From IMG/VR virus record IMGVR_UViG_3300028840_001858, positions 1 through 47,577 of that record: a stretch of DNA of 47,577 bases. One strand, written 5' to 3'. Below the pieces are notes generated by a model. The model did not search any database. It saw only the letters and a list, made by a program, of their open reading frames with translations, and was not told the origin of the DNA. The stretch comes from a virus. The position numbers and the translations under genes were made by a program. Below are positions 774 through 5,657 of the stretch, piece by piece; the first letter of the stretch is position 1; every line of letters begins with the position of its first letter.

Positions 774-1667
774 TCAACTTCCTCCCCGCATTATTTTCCA
801 TGCTGTTGCAGCCACTCGTGGAACCTGTCCATTCCCAAGGGCTTTAAGTCGGTCCACCCGACGGGCCACCCCATGAGCCACTCGACCCACATCGGGTTCA
901 GTTGGCCACCCACCCGCTCTGATAGTGGTCGGCTGTTTCGGCTCATGGTAGTAGGACTCGCTTTCCCTGATCTCCAATCCCTCGCAGTCGGCGTCGGCCA
1001 AAGGTTTTTCTTCGCCATTGTTTGCAGGCTCGGGCGTTCCTTCCCTGTCCGACCGGCCGCCCTGCCTTTGTTTGTCCCGTAACTGCACGCGCTTGGAGTC
1101 GGAAACAAGTTCCGATGCCGTAGCCACTTCTGCATTGACGGTGCCATCATATTCGCCTTTGCCGTTGGAGTTGGCAAATATCCAGATCCGGTCCCTTTTA
1201 TGGGGCGCTCCGCAGTCCTCCGCCGATACACGACACCATTCCGTATCGTACCCCAGAAGGGCCAGGTCTTTGAGGACCACGGCAAGACCACGAATCCGGA
1301 GAAGCGGCGAATTCTCCACAAAGACAAAACTCGGTCTAACCTCACTGATAATCCTTGCCATCTCCGACCAAAGCCCGGATCGTTCCCCCTCGAGCCCCGC
1401 ACCTTTTCCGGCGGCGCTGATGTCCTGGCACGGGAAGCCCCCAGAGACGACATCCACCTTTCCACGCCATGGTCTACCATCGAAGGTTCTAATGTCGTCC
1501 CAGATGGGGAAAGGCCGGAGGGTTTTATCTTCTTGTCTTCGAAGGAGGACCTCTCGGCAATACGGATCGATCTCAACTGCGCACACTGTTCGCCACCCAA
1601 GCAGTCGTCCACCCAGAATTCCTCCTCCAGCGCCAGCGAACAATGCCAACTCATTCAACTCCTCCAT
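774..1667 (-). CDS. DNA (cytosine-5)-methyltransferase
   Basis: 297 residues. It transfers a methyl group from S-adenosylmethionine to C5 of cytosine in DNA, presumably masking phage DNA from restriction. Motif I (FAGAGG, residues 10-15), motif IV with catalytic Cys80 (GGFPCQ), motif VI Glu118 (ENS, where ENV is usual), the motif VIII region (KRDRIWI, about 157-163) and motif X (ALGNGQVP, about 276-283) are all visible. The target-recognition region between VIII and IX is short and rich in repeated A/D-N/D-S/A units. The ATG at 1667 has GGAG 10 bases upstream. A second frame of the same strand is open over nearly the whole gene (791-1654) and looks coding; see the next entry. Enzyme activity is probable, specificity unknown. 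Confidence 0.92.
   Translation of the reverse strand: MEELNELALFAGAGGGILGGRLLGWRTVCAVEIDPYCREVLLRRQEDKTLRPFPIWDDIRTFDGRPWRGKVDVVSGGFPCQDISAAGKGAGLEGERSGLWSEMARIISEVRPSFVFVENSPLLRIRGLAVVLKDLALLGYDTEWCRVSAEDCGAPHKRDRIWIFANSNGKGEYDGTVNAEVATASELVSDSKRVQLRDKQRQGGRSDREGTPEPANNGEEKPLADADCEGLEIRESESYYHEPKQPTTIRAGGWPTEPDVGRVAHGVARRVDRLKALGNGQVPRVAATAWKIMRGGS
791..1654 (-). CDS. Overlapping-frame ORF inside methyltransferase, PTPTA/WVEWLMGWP type
   Basis: 287 codons open in the +1 frame relative to the C5 methyltransferase, same strand, without a stop. It has its own ATG preceded by GGAGGAG at 4-5 bases, a better site than that of the methyltransferase. From about residue 70 it reads like a protein type I remember from phage methyltransferase annotations: repeated L/F/W-PTPTA units (about 160, 185 and 219), DWRSGKAS, and a C-terminal LNPMWVEWLMGWPVGWT. 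The PTPTA units lie on the same bases that encode ANSNG, VSDSK and LADAD in the methyltransferase frame. Either both frames are translated or one is the shadow of a family that has switched frame. Function unknown; whether this frame is expressed is uncertain. Confidence 0.45.
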   Translation of the reverse strand: MSWHCSLALEEEFWVDDCLGGEQCAQLRSIRIAERSSFEDKKIKPSGLSPSGTTLEPSMVDHGVERWMSSLGASRARTSAPPEKVRGSRGNDPGFGRRWQGLSVRLDRVLSLWRIRRFSGFVVLPWSSKTWPFWGTIRNGVVYRRRTAERPIKGTGSGYLPTPTAKANMMAPSMQKWLRHRNLFPTPSACSYGTNKGRAAGRTGKERPSLQTMAKKNLWPTPTARDWRSGKASPTTMSRNSRPLSERVGGQLNPMWVEWLMGWPVGWTDLKPLGMDRFHEWLQQHGK

Positions 1668-2780: not shown

Positions 2781-3050
2781 TTATTCAGCCTCAGAAGAAT
2801 ATCGTTCAAAGTCGAAACAGCTATCCTCGTTTTTCTTCTCACCTGGATGTATGTCGCATGCGCCCTCAAAAGTCCGAAAGTGCTTGCAATCAATACATTT
2901 CCTATCAGTCGATACAGTCCCATCGGCCACCTCCGGGGGCAGTCGGATGCCTGACTGTCTCACGATGCAGGCATCATAGTAGTCGTGGAGCTCGCACATG
3001 CTTTGCATGGGGCACCCGGCACAGTTTGGATCAGTAGACGGGGTCTTCAT
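2781..3050 (-). CDS. Small Cys-rich protein
   Basis: 89 residues from the ATG at 3050, which has GAGGTG 4-5 bases upstream; a TTG 8 codons earlier is a weaker start. Cysteines are arranged as C-x2-C-x5-C near the N-terminus and C-x2-C-x-H-F...C-x2-HP...C in the C-terminal half. The second module closely resembles that of the gene at 5844-6068 (C-x2-C-x-H-F...C-x2-NP...C), so the two are probably paralogues. A metal-binding knuckle is inferred, function unknown. The stop directly abuts the start of the 145-residue gene. Confidence 0.75.
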   Translation of the reverse strand: MKTPSTDPNCAGCPMQSMCELHDYYDACIVRQSGIRLPPEVADGTVSTDRKCIDCKHFRTFEGACDIHPGEKKNEDSCFDFERYSSEAE

Positions 3051-3180
3051 TGAGCACCTCTTCGAGCTTTTCAATCGCGTGTTTCAACCAAAGACTTTGG
3101 CCTGATTGGTTTTTTCTGTGCAATAATTCCAGTGCCTCCGCAATTACACTTTCGAGCCTTTCGATTCTCTCATCTTCCAT
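3031..3180 (-). CDS. Small helical protein, 49 aa
   Basis: 49 codons read from the gap after the primase gene. Its ATG (3180-3178) overlaps the primase TGA in a TGATG arrangement, and its end overlaps the next gene by 20 bases. The product is charged and heptad-like (MEDERIERLESVIAEALELL at the start), consistent with a short coiled coil. No family recognised. Confidence 0.65.
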   Translation of the reverse strand: MEDERIERLESVIAEALELLHRKNQSGQSLWLKHAIEKLEEVLNEDPVY

Positions 3181-5657
3181 CAAAACACCCAATCCCTTTC
3201 TTCCGTCGGTTTCATTCGGATCCCTCTGAATCGCACGGGAGTCCCCCGGCCCCCAATCAATTCATGACCCAATGCCTGCATCCCTTCGACGAATGCCGGC
3301 CGGGGGACCTTCTTCCGGCCCTGCTCCTGGATCCAAAACTGATACTCATTCCAAATCTCCCTGACCAATACCGTATCATTTTCATTCCCTATTGTACAGC
3401 AATCCGCAAAGAAAGCCGCGAGGGGGTTGGCACCCCGGAGCCAATTGGCCGCGGCGGTTCGCAGTGCCAGCGGCGGGTCGAAGCGCCCCCGGGCCCTCAG
3501 TCTGTTCAGTCCTTCCAGTGCTTTGTTCAGTACCCCTGGCAACTCAGACTCAATCACCCGCTCAGCCCGGGCGGTGTCCTGCTCCTCCGGGTGGAATATC
3601 CGCATGAACGGCACGACCAGCGCCCGGCGCCGCATGCCCGACGAGATGTCGGTGGTCCGGGGGTAGTCATTGGCCGCCATCACTACTGACGTGCAGGCGA
3701 CGAACTGGAAGGTCTTGGCGCCCTTTGGGTTGGCCAACATCTTTTTGTTTTCGGTGATTTTTTTGAGCAGCTCGCCCGGGAGCTTCGTCCCTTTCTCGAC
3801 GTCCTCGTCAATCAGGGCCAGCTTGCCGACCAAGTCGGTGGTCGCGTGGTTGTTTCCATTGTTGAAATTTCCAAGCGACGTGCAAAGCCCACACTCCCCC
3901 AGGAGGGCGGTGAGGACGTCCAGCACCACCGTCTTACCATTGGCCCCGCGGCCGAAGAATAGCCACCAGTGAGGCATGTTCTTGCGGGGCTGCAGGGTGT
4001 AGCCAATCATTTCCCAGAGGTGGTCAATGACAAAGTTGCCGGCATCCCCGAGGGGGTTGAATATGTCGGTGAGGGTCGACTCGAACAGGGGGCATTGAGC
4101 CTCGGGGTCGTAGTCTGTATCGATGCGGTGGGTGAGGTAACTCCGCGGATCGTGTGGCTTGAACTCATGCTGCCCGCTGCGCTCGTCAATCCAGATCTCC
4201 CCGTTGAGACAGTTGATAACCGGCGGGGGCTGCACGGTCAAGCGCAGTAGGTCCTCCTCGCTGCTCGATTCCCTTTTCAACGTTTTGAGCACCTCGTCGG
4301 TCAAGCTCGCGACTGACTTCTTACTCTTTGGATTCGCCTGGACCCAGTCCCGAACCACATACATCACATCCTTACCGACGACATCCTGGTCGGTCGGCTT
4401 CCAATACTTCCCAGTGTAGGTCCAGAACTGCCCGCCGAGGGTGATGATATTTGCGCCCTTATTGTAAACCTGGTCGAGGGCTGTGTAGGTGACCTCGTCC
4501 CCGGCGTCCATTGAGGACGTGGGGCGCTCGCCGACTACGGGCGCGAGGGATTGCATGAGCCGCTTGAGGGCCTCGGCCAGCACGCTCTTGGGCCGGTTGG
4601 ACTGCCGGGCCAGGGCGTCGAGTGCGTCGTGTCGGTCGAGGGGGTCGAGGTAACAGATGTCGTCCAGCACTGACTTGATTTGTTTGATGTCGCACGACGG
4701 GGTGACCTCGTCAATCTGCGCCCTCACAGCCGCCAGGGTCGGCCGCTCTTTCGTCGCGGGCACCGGCACGGCCTCGAACTCAGACTCAGCACTGACAACC
4801 CCCGGCAGCCCCACGGGGAGGGGTTTCCCCCGCTTGCTGATCTCATGGCAGATCGTCCCGGCCGTGCGCTTGGTCGGTGCTGGGCTTTGCAGGCTGGCCC
4901 AGCGCGCTCGGATTGATGGCCCGGCGTTGCGGTACTTGGGGTCACTGGTCGACCACTCAATGAACTCATCGACCCCGGCGCCCCCGGTCGCGTGGTACGC
5001 AGCGCACATCAAGGGGAACCAACTGGCATTTGAATTGAATTCCTCGACGGGCAGCAACTCGAGGGCAGCCTTGAGGTTCTCGGGCGACCACGCTGTAATG
5101 TAGGACTCGTCGGCCACGTCCGATGCTGTCGGGGTGATGAGCAGTGCGGCCAGCAACCGGTCCGGAGGGGGTGGGATTTCGCTTATTGTGATGTTCGAAA
5201 ACTCGTCGAACTCGTATTCATCCCCGGTCTCCGGGTGAATCGACCCAGGGATAACCACCTGCCTCCCTAAGCCTTTGAACTCAATCCCGTCATACCCCAG
5301 CACCTCCCGGAACTTCGAGCCCCAGCGGGCCGCCTGGTCCACGGTGAGCCTCATATAGAAATGGTACCCACCCCCGCCGGTCAGCACGGCCGGGAGAACA
5401 TTCGCCGTGATCTCCGGGTAGTCCTCCTGCAGGTCCGGCAGGGAGTCAAGCCCCCCGTGCCGAGCGTCTACGTCGACCACGAGGTCCCGCGGCCCCATCC
5501 GAAACCCAACATTGCTGGCATGGGATTGAAGTTCCATCGGACTGTATTCCCGGGTGGTCCACTCGGAATGCAACGGCCGCTTGCCGTCCTTCCCGGCTCG
5601 GAGGGGGATCAGTGTGCAGTCGCGATCGTAATACCATTTTAGTATTTCTGGATTCAC
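3180..5657 (-). CDS. PrimPol-SF3 helicase (phage/plasmid primase, D5-like)
   Basis: 825 residues from the GTG at 5657, which has GGAGGG 4-5 bases upstream; a TTG four codons earlier is possible. The N-terminal part (about 1-180) is a primase-polymerase domain with the metal-binding D-x-D (VVDVDARHGG, about residue 60). A PriCT-like linker with WFPLMCAAYHATGG (about 215) follows. The C-terminal part contains a D5_N region and an SF3-type helicase with Walker A GRGANGKT (about 567) and Walker B LALIDEDVEKG (about 610). It should synthesise primers and unwind the phage origin. It works with the family A polymerase, DUF2815 protein and helicase near the right edge, which are downstream on the same strand across the join. 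Confidence 0.92.
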   Translation of the reverse strand: MNPEILKWYYDRDCTLIPLRAGKDGKRPLHSEWTTREYSPMELQSHASNVGFRMGPRDLVVDVDARHGGLDSLPDLQEDYPEITANVLPAVLTGGGGYHFYMRLTVDQAARWGSKFREVLGYDGIEFKGLGRQVVIPGSIHPETGDEYEFDEFSNITISEIPPPPDRLLAALLITPTASDVADESYITAWSPENLKAALELLPVEEFNSNASWFPLMCAAYHATGGAGVDEFIEWSTSDPKYRNAGPSIRARWASLQSPAPTKRTAGTICHEISKRGKPLPVGLPGVVSAESEFEAVPVPATKERPTLAAVRAQIDEVTPSCDIKQIKSVLDDICYLDPLDRHDALDALARQSNRPKSVLAEALKRLMQSLAPVVGERPTSSMDAGDEVTYTALDQVYNKGANIITLGGQFWTYTGKYWKPTDQDVVGKDVMYVVRDWVQANPKSKKSVASLTDEVLKTLKRESSSEEDLLRLTVQPPPVINCLNGEIWIDERSGQHEFKPHDPRSYLTHRIDTDYDPEAQCPLFESTLTDIFNPLGDAGNFVIDHLWEMIGYTLQPRKNMPHWWLFFGRGANGKTVVLDVLTALLGECGLCTSLGNFNNGNNHATTDLVGKLALIDEDVEKGTKLPGELLKKITENKKMLANPKGAKTFQFVACTSVVMAANDYPRTTDISSGMRRRALVVPFMRIFHPEEQDTARAERVIESELPGVLNKALEGLNRLRARGRFDPPLALRTAAANWLRGANPLAAFFADCCTIGNENDTVLVREIWNEYQFWIQEQGRKKVPRPAFVEGMQALGHELIGGRGTPVRFRGIRMKPTEERDWVF

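Follow-up and report, generated by a model that had tools for sequence, protein, structure and literature searches.

A methyltransferase gene in the virus DNA analysed here (the window, which is a complete IMG/VR virus record, 47,577 bases long) has two coding frames, and very probably it encodes in these overlapping frames the two chains, alpha and beta, of a heterodimeric C5-cytosine DNA methyltransferase. The +1 frame relative to the methyltransferase (alpha) frame is a second genuine coding frame, far beyond chance, and dual coding is very strongly supported by its conserved openness, by a codon choice that avoids stops, and by purifying selection acting within the recognition region on the protein of the +1 frame. 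Dual coding was one of two explanations offered by an earlier note on this DNA, and it is the one that holds. The computations made here show that both frames are under coding selection, how the motifs are shared out between the two, and to what beta is homologous.

The earlier note had described both open reading frames, the second of 287 codons with its own ATG, and both were recovered on the minus strand (Table 1). It had read motifs I, IV, VI, VIII and X in the methyltransferase frame, and this list is correct, the absent motif IX lying in the other frame. The PTPTA units and the LNPMWVEWLMGWPVGWT end that it had read in the +1 protein are likewise present. Directly upstream of alpha lies a 241-aa gene, complement(1669-2394), without a PHROGs match, and the position of its stop codon, 1 nt before the ATG of alpha, suggests translational coupling. 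Elsewhere in the window, the protein encoded by complement(8-412) has 134 aa, contains a long EPKPEPKP repeat, and weakly matches phrog_408, a family of unknown function.

Table 1. Features of the two-frame methyltransferase gene in the window, with the basis of each assignment; ratios are of the nonsynonymous/synonymous type.
Feature	Position	Strand	Details and basis
Alpha, C5-cytosine methyltransferase frame (frame 0), ATG start	complement(774-1667)	minus	297 aa; PF00145, phrog_363
Beta, +1-frame protein, ATG start	complement(791-1654)	minus	287 aa; phrog_1008, phrog_26627; selection in the +1 frame
Content of beta: target-recognition modules and motif IX	791..1654	minus	
Content of alpha: motifs I-VIII and X, without motif IX in frame 0	774..1667	minus	
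Start codon of alpha, ATG	1665..1667	minus	1 nt from the TAG of the upstream gene (1669-1671)
Start codon of beta, ATG	1652..1654	minus	within alpha codons 5-6 (AAT GAG), 13 nt past that of alpha
GGAGGAG, Shine-Dalgarno-like for beta, in the first alpha codons	1659..1665	minus	sequence; spacing in relatives
Catalytic large domain, alpha residues 1-166 (motifs I-VIII)	1170..1667	minus	frame-0 ratio 0.09-0.30; AlphaFold confident to residue 172
Predicted strands, beta residues 95-150	1205..1372	minus	ratios 0.30 in frame 0 and 0.67 in frame +1; beta model
Three WPTP-type modules of beta (residues 160-183, 184-218, 219-251)	902..1177	minus	selection, AlphaFold, module comparison
Motif IX in beta, residues 252-270, LNPMWVEWLMGWPVGWTDL	845..901	minus	ratio 0.12 in frame +1, 0.96 in frame 0
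Motif X in alpha, residues 271-290, VDRLKALGNGQVPRVAATAW	798..857	minus	ratio 0.15 in frame 0, 1.95 in frame +1

The openness of the +1 frame was evaluated in 59 distinct relatives, which were retrieved with the alpha (methyltransferase) frame only and thus independently of the +1 frame, against synonymous codon shuffles that preserve both the protein and its codon usage. Over alpha residues 9-280, no internal +1 stop was observed, compared with 331 expected from the shuffles, and the +1 frame was stop-free in the genes of 59 of 59 relatives (0.16 expected); stops in the second frame of relatives, which the earlier note had named as evidence that would speak against coding, are therefore absent over this range. 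Across the whole set of 138 genes, +1 stops numbered 1.9 per gene vs. 6.8 expected, nearly all of them at both ends, and the +2 frame carried 17.4 stops per gene vs. 14.9 expected. Four ordinary single-chain phage methyltransferases, used as controls, had about as many stops as expected (21/21.9, 21/24.0, 12/13.4, and 14/14.7, observed/expected), showing that ordinary phage methyltransferases are not open in +1. Codon choice points the same way. The Ile codon ATA was used at 0 of 957 positions followed by A or G, compared with 176 of 331 followed by C, and the Val codons GTA and GTG were used at 0 of 194 positions followed by A, indicating that codons which would create +1 stops are avoided. 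The claim of coding rests on these stop and codon tests and on the substitution tests described below, rather than on tblastn E-values, which were set aside because +1 similarity across the N-terminal half partly mirrors the conservation of alpha.

The two start codons form a close pair in most relatives. The ATG of beta lies exactly 4 nt past the start of alpha in 101 of 134 relatives, and 13 nt past it in the window. The alpha Asn5 codon that carries the beta ATG is AAT in 114 of 114 relatives, compared with 46% for AAT among all Asn codons there, while the alpha start codon itself varies among the 85 relatives with the 4-nt spacing (ATG in 53, TTG in 17, and GTG in 15). At its commonest spacing, the best Shine-Dalgarno match lies 7-8 nt before the beta ATG, and thus 3-4 nt before the alpha start. 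In the window, GGAGGAG (1659-1665) is well positioned for beta, just upstream of 1652-1654, as the earlier note had observed.

Selection passes from one frame to the other along the gene. Substitutions were counted in 24 disjoint pairs of relatives with at least 85% identity, each difference being classed, separately for the two frames, as silent or replacing, with the full set of possible single changes as the reference. The resulting ratios, which are simple pairwise counts with gaps excluded and which sample the variable module region mainly where close relatives align, are (frame 0/frame +1) 0.15/1.62 for alpha residues 16-105, 0.30/0.67 for 106-150, 0.09/3.05 for 151-165, 1.78/0.33 for 166-210, 3.27/0.19 for 211-255, 0.96/0.12 for residues 256-272 with motif IX, and 0.15/1.95 for residues 273-287 with motif X. 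Constraint thus falls mainly on frame 0 over alpha residues 1-166, with both frames constrained at about 106-150, and on the +1 frame over residues 166-272, where the frame-specific comparison suggested by the earlier note finds the second protein constrained. The picture was unchanged when 45 pairs at 75% identity or more were used. These ratios indicate that alpha is selected for motifs I-VIII and X, and beta for the interval between VIII and X, which is the home of the recognition domain and motif IX. The DNA of the WPTP modules, when read as alpha, is a spacer without constraint and predicted to be disordered; the first ~100 residues of beta are purged of stops and show no amino-acid constraint.

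Alpha matches PF00145 (2.2e-33, residues 8-173) and phrog_363 (2.3e-69), its solved relatives in the PDB by sequence are HhaI and HaeIII, and GFPCQ, ENS, RDRIW, and GNGQVP are close to invariant across 78 relatives. Alpha thus has the PF00145 profile together with motifs I, IV (PCQ), VI, VIII, and X by which a C5-methyltransferase is recognised, whereas motif IX and the recognition domain, which an ordinary chain would also hold, both lie in the +1 frame. In agreement with the selection ratios, the AlphaFold model of alpha is confident for residues 1-172 and for a C-terminal helix at about 281-297, with 173-277 disordered. Beta matches phrog_1008 (2e-22) and phrog_26627 (1.1e-15), and also phrog_35493 and phrog_27243; the absence of any family matching the second frame, which the earlier note had counted as contrary evidence, is thus not what was found. 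No match to beta was obtained in Pfam or NCBIfam, its profile gave no meaningful match in the PDB, a profile of beta with motif X added found nothing there, and Foldseek with the low-confidence beta model returned no solved structure. That model is poor (mean pLDDT 55), its first 94 residues being below 50 and disordered; strands are predicted for 98-144, and helices for 205-287, at moderate confidence. When alpha-beta chimeras were built in silico and aligned to PF00145, so as to see if the family match would reach past motif IX, the alignment ended near motif VIII in all but one chimera.

What beta is can be read from its relatives. Nearly all betas contain 1-5 modules, mostly of 30-45 aa and each opening with (W/F/L)PTP, and after the modules comes LNPxWVEWLMGWPxGWTDL; in the window there are three modules. 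Single module types recur in different genes at different places, and the commonest, present in 37 betas, takes any position from 1 to 4. In the Propionibacterium phage PFR1, gp45 (L262) carries PCQ, ENV, RRERVF, LLPTPTARD, LSARFVEWMMGLPDG, and GNGAVPQQA in one chain and one frame, i.e., a beta-like segment (PTPTARD, LSARFVEWMMGLPDG) is fused with motifs I-VIII and X. In the mycobacteriophage LHTSCC, gp81 stops directly after motif VIII, and gp80, which overlaps it by 26 nt and uses the +1 frame, contains three PTP modules, an IX-like segment, and motif X; the +1 frame upstream of gp80 has stops. The same alpha/beta division, with long overlaps, was found in genes 35/36 of the Streptomyces phage Heather, in a Spirochaetia contig (L228), and in Paraburkholderia adhaesiva (L246), so that the beta of these four split systems is a separate subunit carrying modules, IX, and X. 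The profile of the beta family of the window matches the C-terminus of PFR1 and the split betas (probability 98.9, E 1e-17), and along the single-chain methyltransferase family phrog_116 alpha matches 207-377, the LHTSCC beta 409-489, and the Heather beta 409-498, colinear with alpha. Beta is therefore a homologue of the C-terminal part in enzymes of both the single-chain and the split form, and these relatives and profiles identify it as the small domain of the enzyme, with the recognition region and motif IX. In C5 methyltransferases generally, the large domain comprises I-VIII and X, and the small domain the recognition region and IX (PMC3404938).

The LNPMWVEWLMGWPVGWT end of beta, which is constrained in the +1 frame, corresponds to motif IX. 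The textbook form of this motif is LTPRECxRLQGFPD, and a direct profile match of beta to the motif IX of ordinary enzymes is in register and weak (P 0.039); the equation of WLMGWPxGW with the textbook motif is thus a probable assignment, made from order and context.

A single chain produced by programmed frameshifting is very unlikely. In such a case, a +1 shift near motif VIII would join motifs I-VIII to the PTPTA modules and IX, beside or instead of beta. The changeover of selection at residues 165/166 fits what a shift would need, and PFR1 shows that the one-chain order is viable. However, the junction has no conserved slippery site, the longest nucleotide run conserved at 95% or more within residues 140-172 being 3 nt, and a frameshift product does not require the beta ATG (AAT in 114/114), nor does it require that the first 165 codons be free of +1 stops. 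Motif X would also be lost unless a second shift occurred, and the split relatives had to acquire X in beta. The other explanation of the earlier note, a gene family that switches its C-terminal specificity regions by frameshift, is not supported, on similar grounds: the same genes conserve the two frames jointly, the +1 frame possesses a conserved start codon of its own, and stops have been purged from the first ~100 of its codons, which are otherwise free. Fusion and splitting by indels do occur between lineages (PFR1, LHTSCC, L228, L246), as evolutionary change.

Overprinting usually yields new proteins, and beta has neither a Pfam nor a fold match, both of which would suit a beta that is translated as a separate protein, e.g., an anti-restriction or regulatory one, on top of an ordinary methyltransferase. 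However, alpha shows neither constraint nor a predicted fold where the recognition domain and IX belong, and beta holds exactly this missing part, is fused to the rest in PFR1, and supplies IX and X in the split pairs; we consider a separate function most improbable. High GC and a conserved frame 0 do raise the odds of an open +1 frame, and conservation of alpha alone yields part of the similarity among +1 proteins, but an untranslated by-product of composition or of the methyltransferase sequence has almost no probability left, given the 331 stops predicted by the shuffles and the 0 seen, the closed +1 frames of ordinary phage methyltransferases, and the evolution of positions 166-272 as +1-frame codons. 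A hidden homing endonuclease is equally remote, for although out-of-frame HNH endonucleases within phage methylase genes have been published (the ShiLan insertion of mycobacteriophage methylases, PMC11855218) and the relative L078 has an HNH-like insert, the gene in the window has no insertion, beta spans the whole gene, and Pfam and NCBIfam give no HNH domain in beta. In L078 itself, an HNH-endonuclease-like ORF is inserted at about 3740-4200, separating the IX from the X segment; it is in frame with neither chain and resembles the ShiLan element of the literature, and the beta frame continues through it to motif X.

In the heterodimer that we favour, alpha would be the large catalytic domain, in which motifs I-VIII bind SAM and catalyse and the motif X helix closes the domain, and the part of alpha between VIII and X would be a mere unstructured spacer imposed by the other frame. 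Beta would be the small domain, its array of WPTP modules recognising the target and its motif IX holding the recognition domain together. Each domain of the enzyme would in this way have been given its own reading frame in one gene (for the domain account, see PMC5944983). The twin starts, i.e., an ATG followed by another 13 nt later in the window and 4 nt later in most relatives, would allow both chains to be made from one mRNA, probably in comparable amounts, and we infer that beta is translated. The chains would then assemble into an active heterodimer that methylates phage DNA, and the mark would most likely counter host restriction. As a further proposal, the enzyme would be multispecific if every module recognised a target of its own, in the manner of the recognition domains of the Bacillus phage enzymes. 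A wider proposal, a little short of probable, is that the WPTP modules are freely recombining separate recognition domains, that in a widespread class of phage methyltransferases the entire, often multispecific, recognition subunit is hidden in an alternative frame of the gene for the catalytic subunit, and that the twin start sets the alpha/beta ratio. Several findings speak against the two-subunit reading: the poor beta model without a solved counterpart, the weak direct match to the textbook motif IX, the unconstrained first ~100 residues of beta, and the relatives L212 and L238, in which alpha has a single stop after or within motif VIII and beta is intact. These stops may reflect a decaying alpha, a sequencing error, or another route to motif X.

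Relatives of beta are widespread, with 558 matched stretches in viral contigs and 382 in a one-genome-per-species set of 84,980 bacteria and archaea; their hosts and sources include Pseudomonas, Acinetobacter, Desulforhopalus, Verrucomicrobiota, Planctomycetota, Nitrospirota, Actinomycetota, Paenibacillus, and one archaeal MAG. In a second set, beta lay in the +1 frame of alpha at 88 of 92 loci. One locus in which alpha and beta share a frame (L245) was not considered further, the cause probably being a deletion in a single MAG contig. In an alpha tree of 118 rows, whose bootstrap support is not fully settled, the split forms L228, L246, and L078 are placed separately inside the intertwined group, suggesting that split forms arose repeatedly, and LHTSCC and Heather cluster with the single-chain PFR1. 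These positions of split and single-chain forms suggest that the overlap is able both to form and to dissolve.

Several known genes belong here as well. The well-studied cytosine methylase of Salmonella phage epsilon15 (AAO06104.1; L259, 1297-2466) is also dual-coded, its +1 frame being open for 348 of 389 codons and reading WPTP modules and LNPAHSRWLMGLPRAW. A prophage-like region of E. coli PT62 (L261) has two methyltransferase genes about 2 kb apart (58-1044 and 3016-3753), both open in +1, of which RefSeq annotates the alpha frames only. Public records for three other loci (L162, L163, L164) annotate the beta frame as the gene, and beta is called 'hypothetical protein' in the Pseudomonas phages phPA-G and Rctr197k and 'cytosine-specific methyltransferase' in the Acidovorax phage Alfacinha1.

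To our knowledge, very few characterised enzymes divide catalysis and recognition between two frames. Lee, Kam and Shaw reportedly described in 1995 an M.EcoHK31I with an alpha of 309 aa and a beta of 176 aa, the latter nested in the alpha gene in another frame. In this E. coli enzyme, which recognises YGGCCR, the large polypeptide has motifs I-VIII and X and the small one has motif IX alone (PMC3404938). The window resembles it, by description rather than by sequence, in having two polypeptides with alpha carrying I-VIII and X and beta carrying IX, and also in the position of beta inside the alpha gene in another frame (+1 in the window), as reported for M.EcoHK31I. We note two differences between them. 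First, the recognition domain of M.EcoHK31I is predicted to lie in the large subunit (PMC3404938; the placement is itself a prediction), whereas the recognition region of the window lies in beta (residues 166-255, with ratios above 1 in frame 0 and of 0.19-0.33 in frame +1). Second, beta of the window spans almost the whole gene, starts 4-13 nt after alpha (window and relatives), and has a modular array. What is new relative to the M.EcoHK31I type is an overlap that is nearly complete, the pairing of the two starts, the array of apparently interchangeable WPTP modules that beta carries, and the wide spread.

Serial recognition domains of ~40 aa between VIII and IX are known from the multispecific C5 methyltransferases of the Bacillus phages SPR, phi3T, SPbeta, and H2, and the 1-5 WPTP modules of beta (mostly 30-45 aa) stand at that place. 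Those enzymes are single chains in one frame, however, and the pairing of modules with targets is here a proposal only. The papers on the Bacillus phage enzymes are cited in PMC8936443. M.AquI (CYCGRG) is a split enzyme in nature, its break lying between motif VIII and the point where the recognition region ends (PMC3404938), and LHTSCC gp81/gp80, Heather 35/36, L228, and L246 have about that layout. A beta with IX and X beside an alpha ending after VIII is found in L168, L228, L246, and L254, whereas in the window it is alpha that carries motif X, and the overlap of the frames is almost complete. The ShiLan element (PMC11855218) shares with beta the position of a second protein out of frame within a phage methylase gene, but this inserted element is mobile and codes for an endonuclease rather than for the half that the methylase lacks. 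In the Paenibacillus phage Diva, the depositors annotated a +1 ORF inside a methyltransferase gene (DIVA_50, KP296791, 'g49 internal gene'), as a hypothetical protein; in the Diva subgroup, however, beta starts internally, without a twin start. A literature search, which left out most subscription papers and all bioRxiv preprints, found no description of a phage family of this kind, only HNH insertions of the ShiLan type.

The gene is an unusually clear case of dual coding, in which the two structural domains of a single enzyme occupy different frames that overlap over nearly the full length, and its conservation reaches across many phyla, in hundreds of phages, prophages, and bacteria. Annotation pipelines give one chain only and sometimes the wrong one, as when the beta frame is labelled 'hypothetical protein' or 'methyltransferase', and recombinant or methylome work with a single ORF would thus probably fail or mislead. 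The copies in phage epsilon15 and in E. coli strains make experiments practical. Since the family has single-chain, split, and intertwined forms, the origin and dissolution of overlapping genes are directly testable in it, and the module arrays suggest that there may be a readable code of DNA targets.
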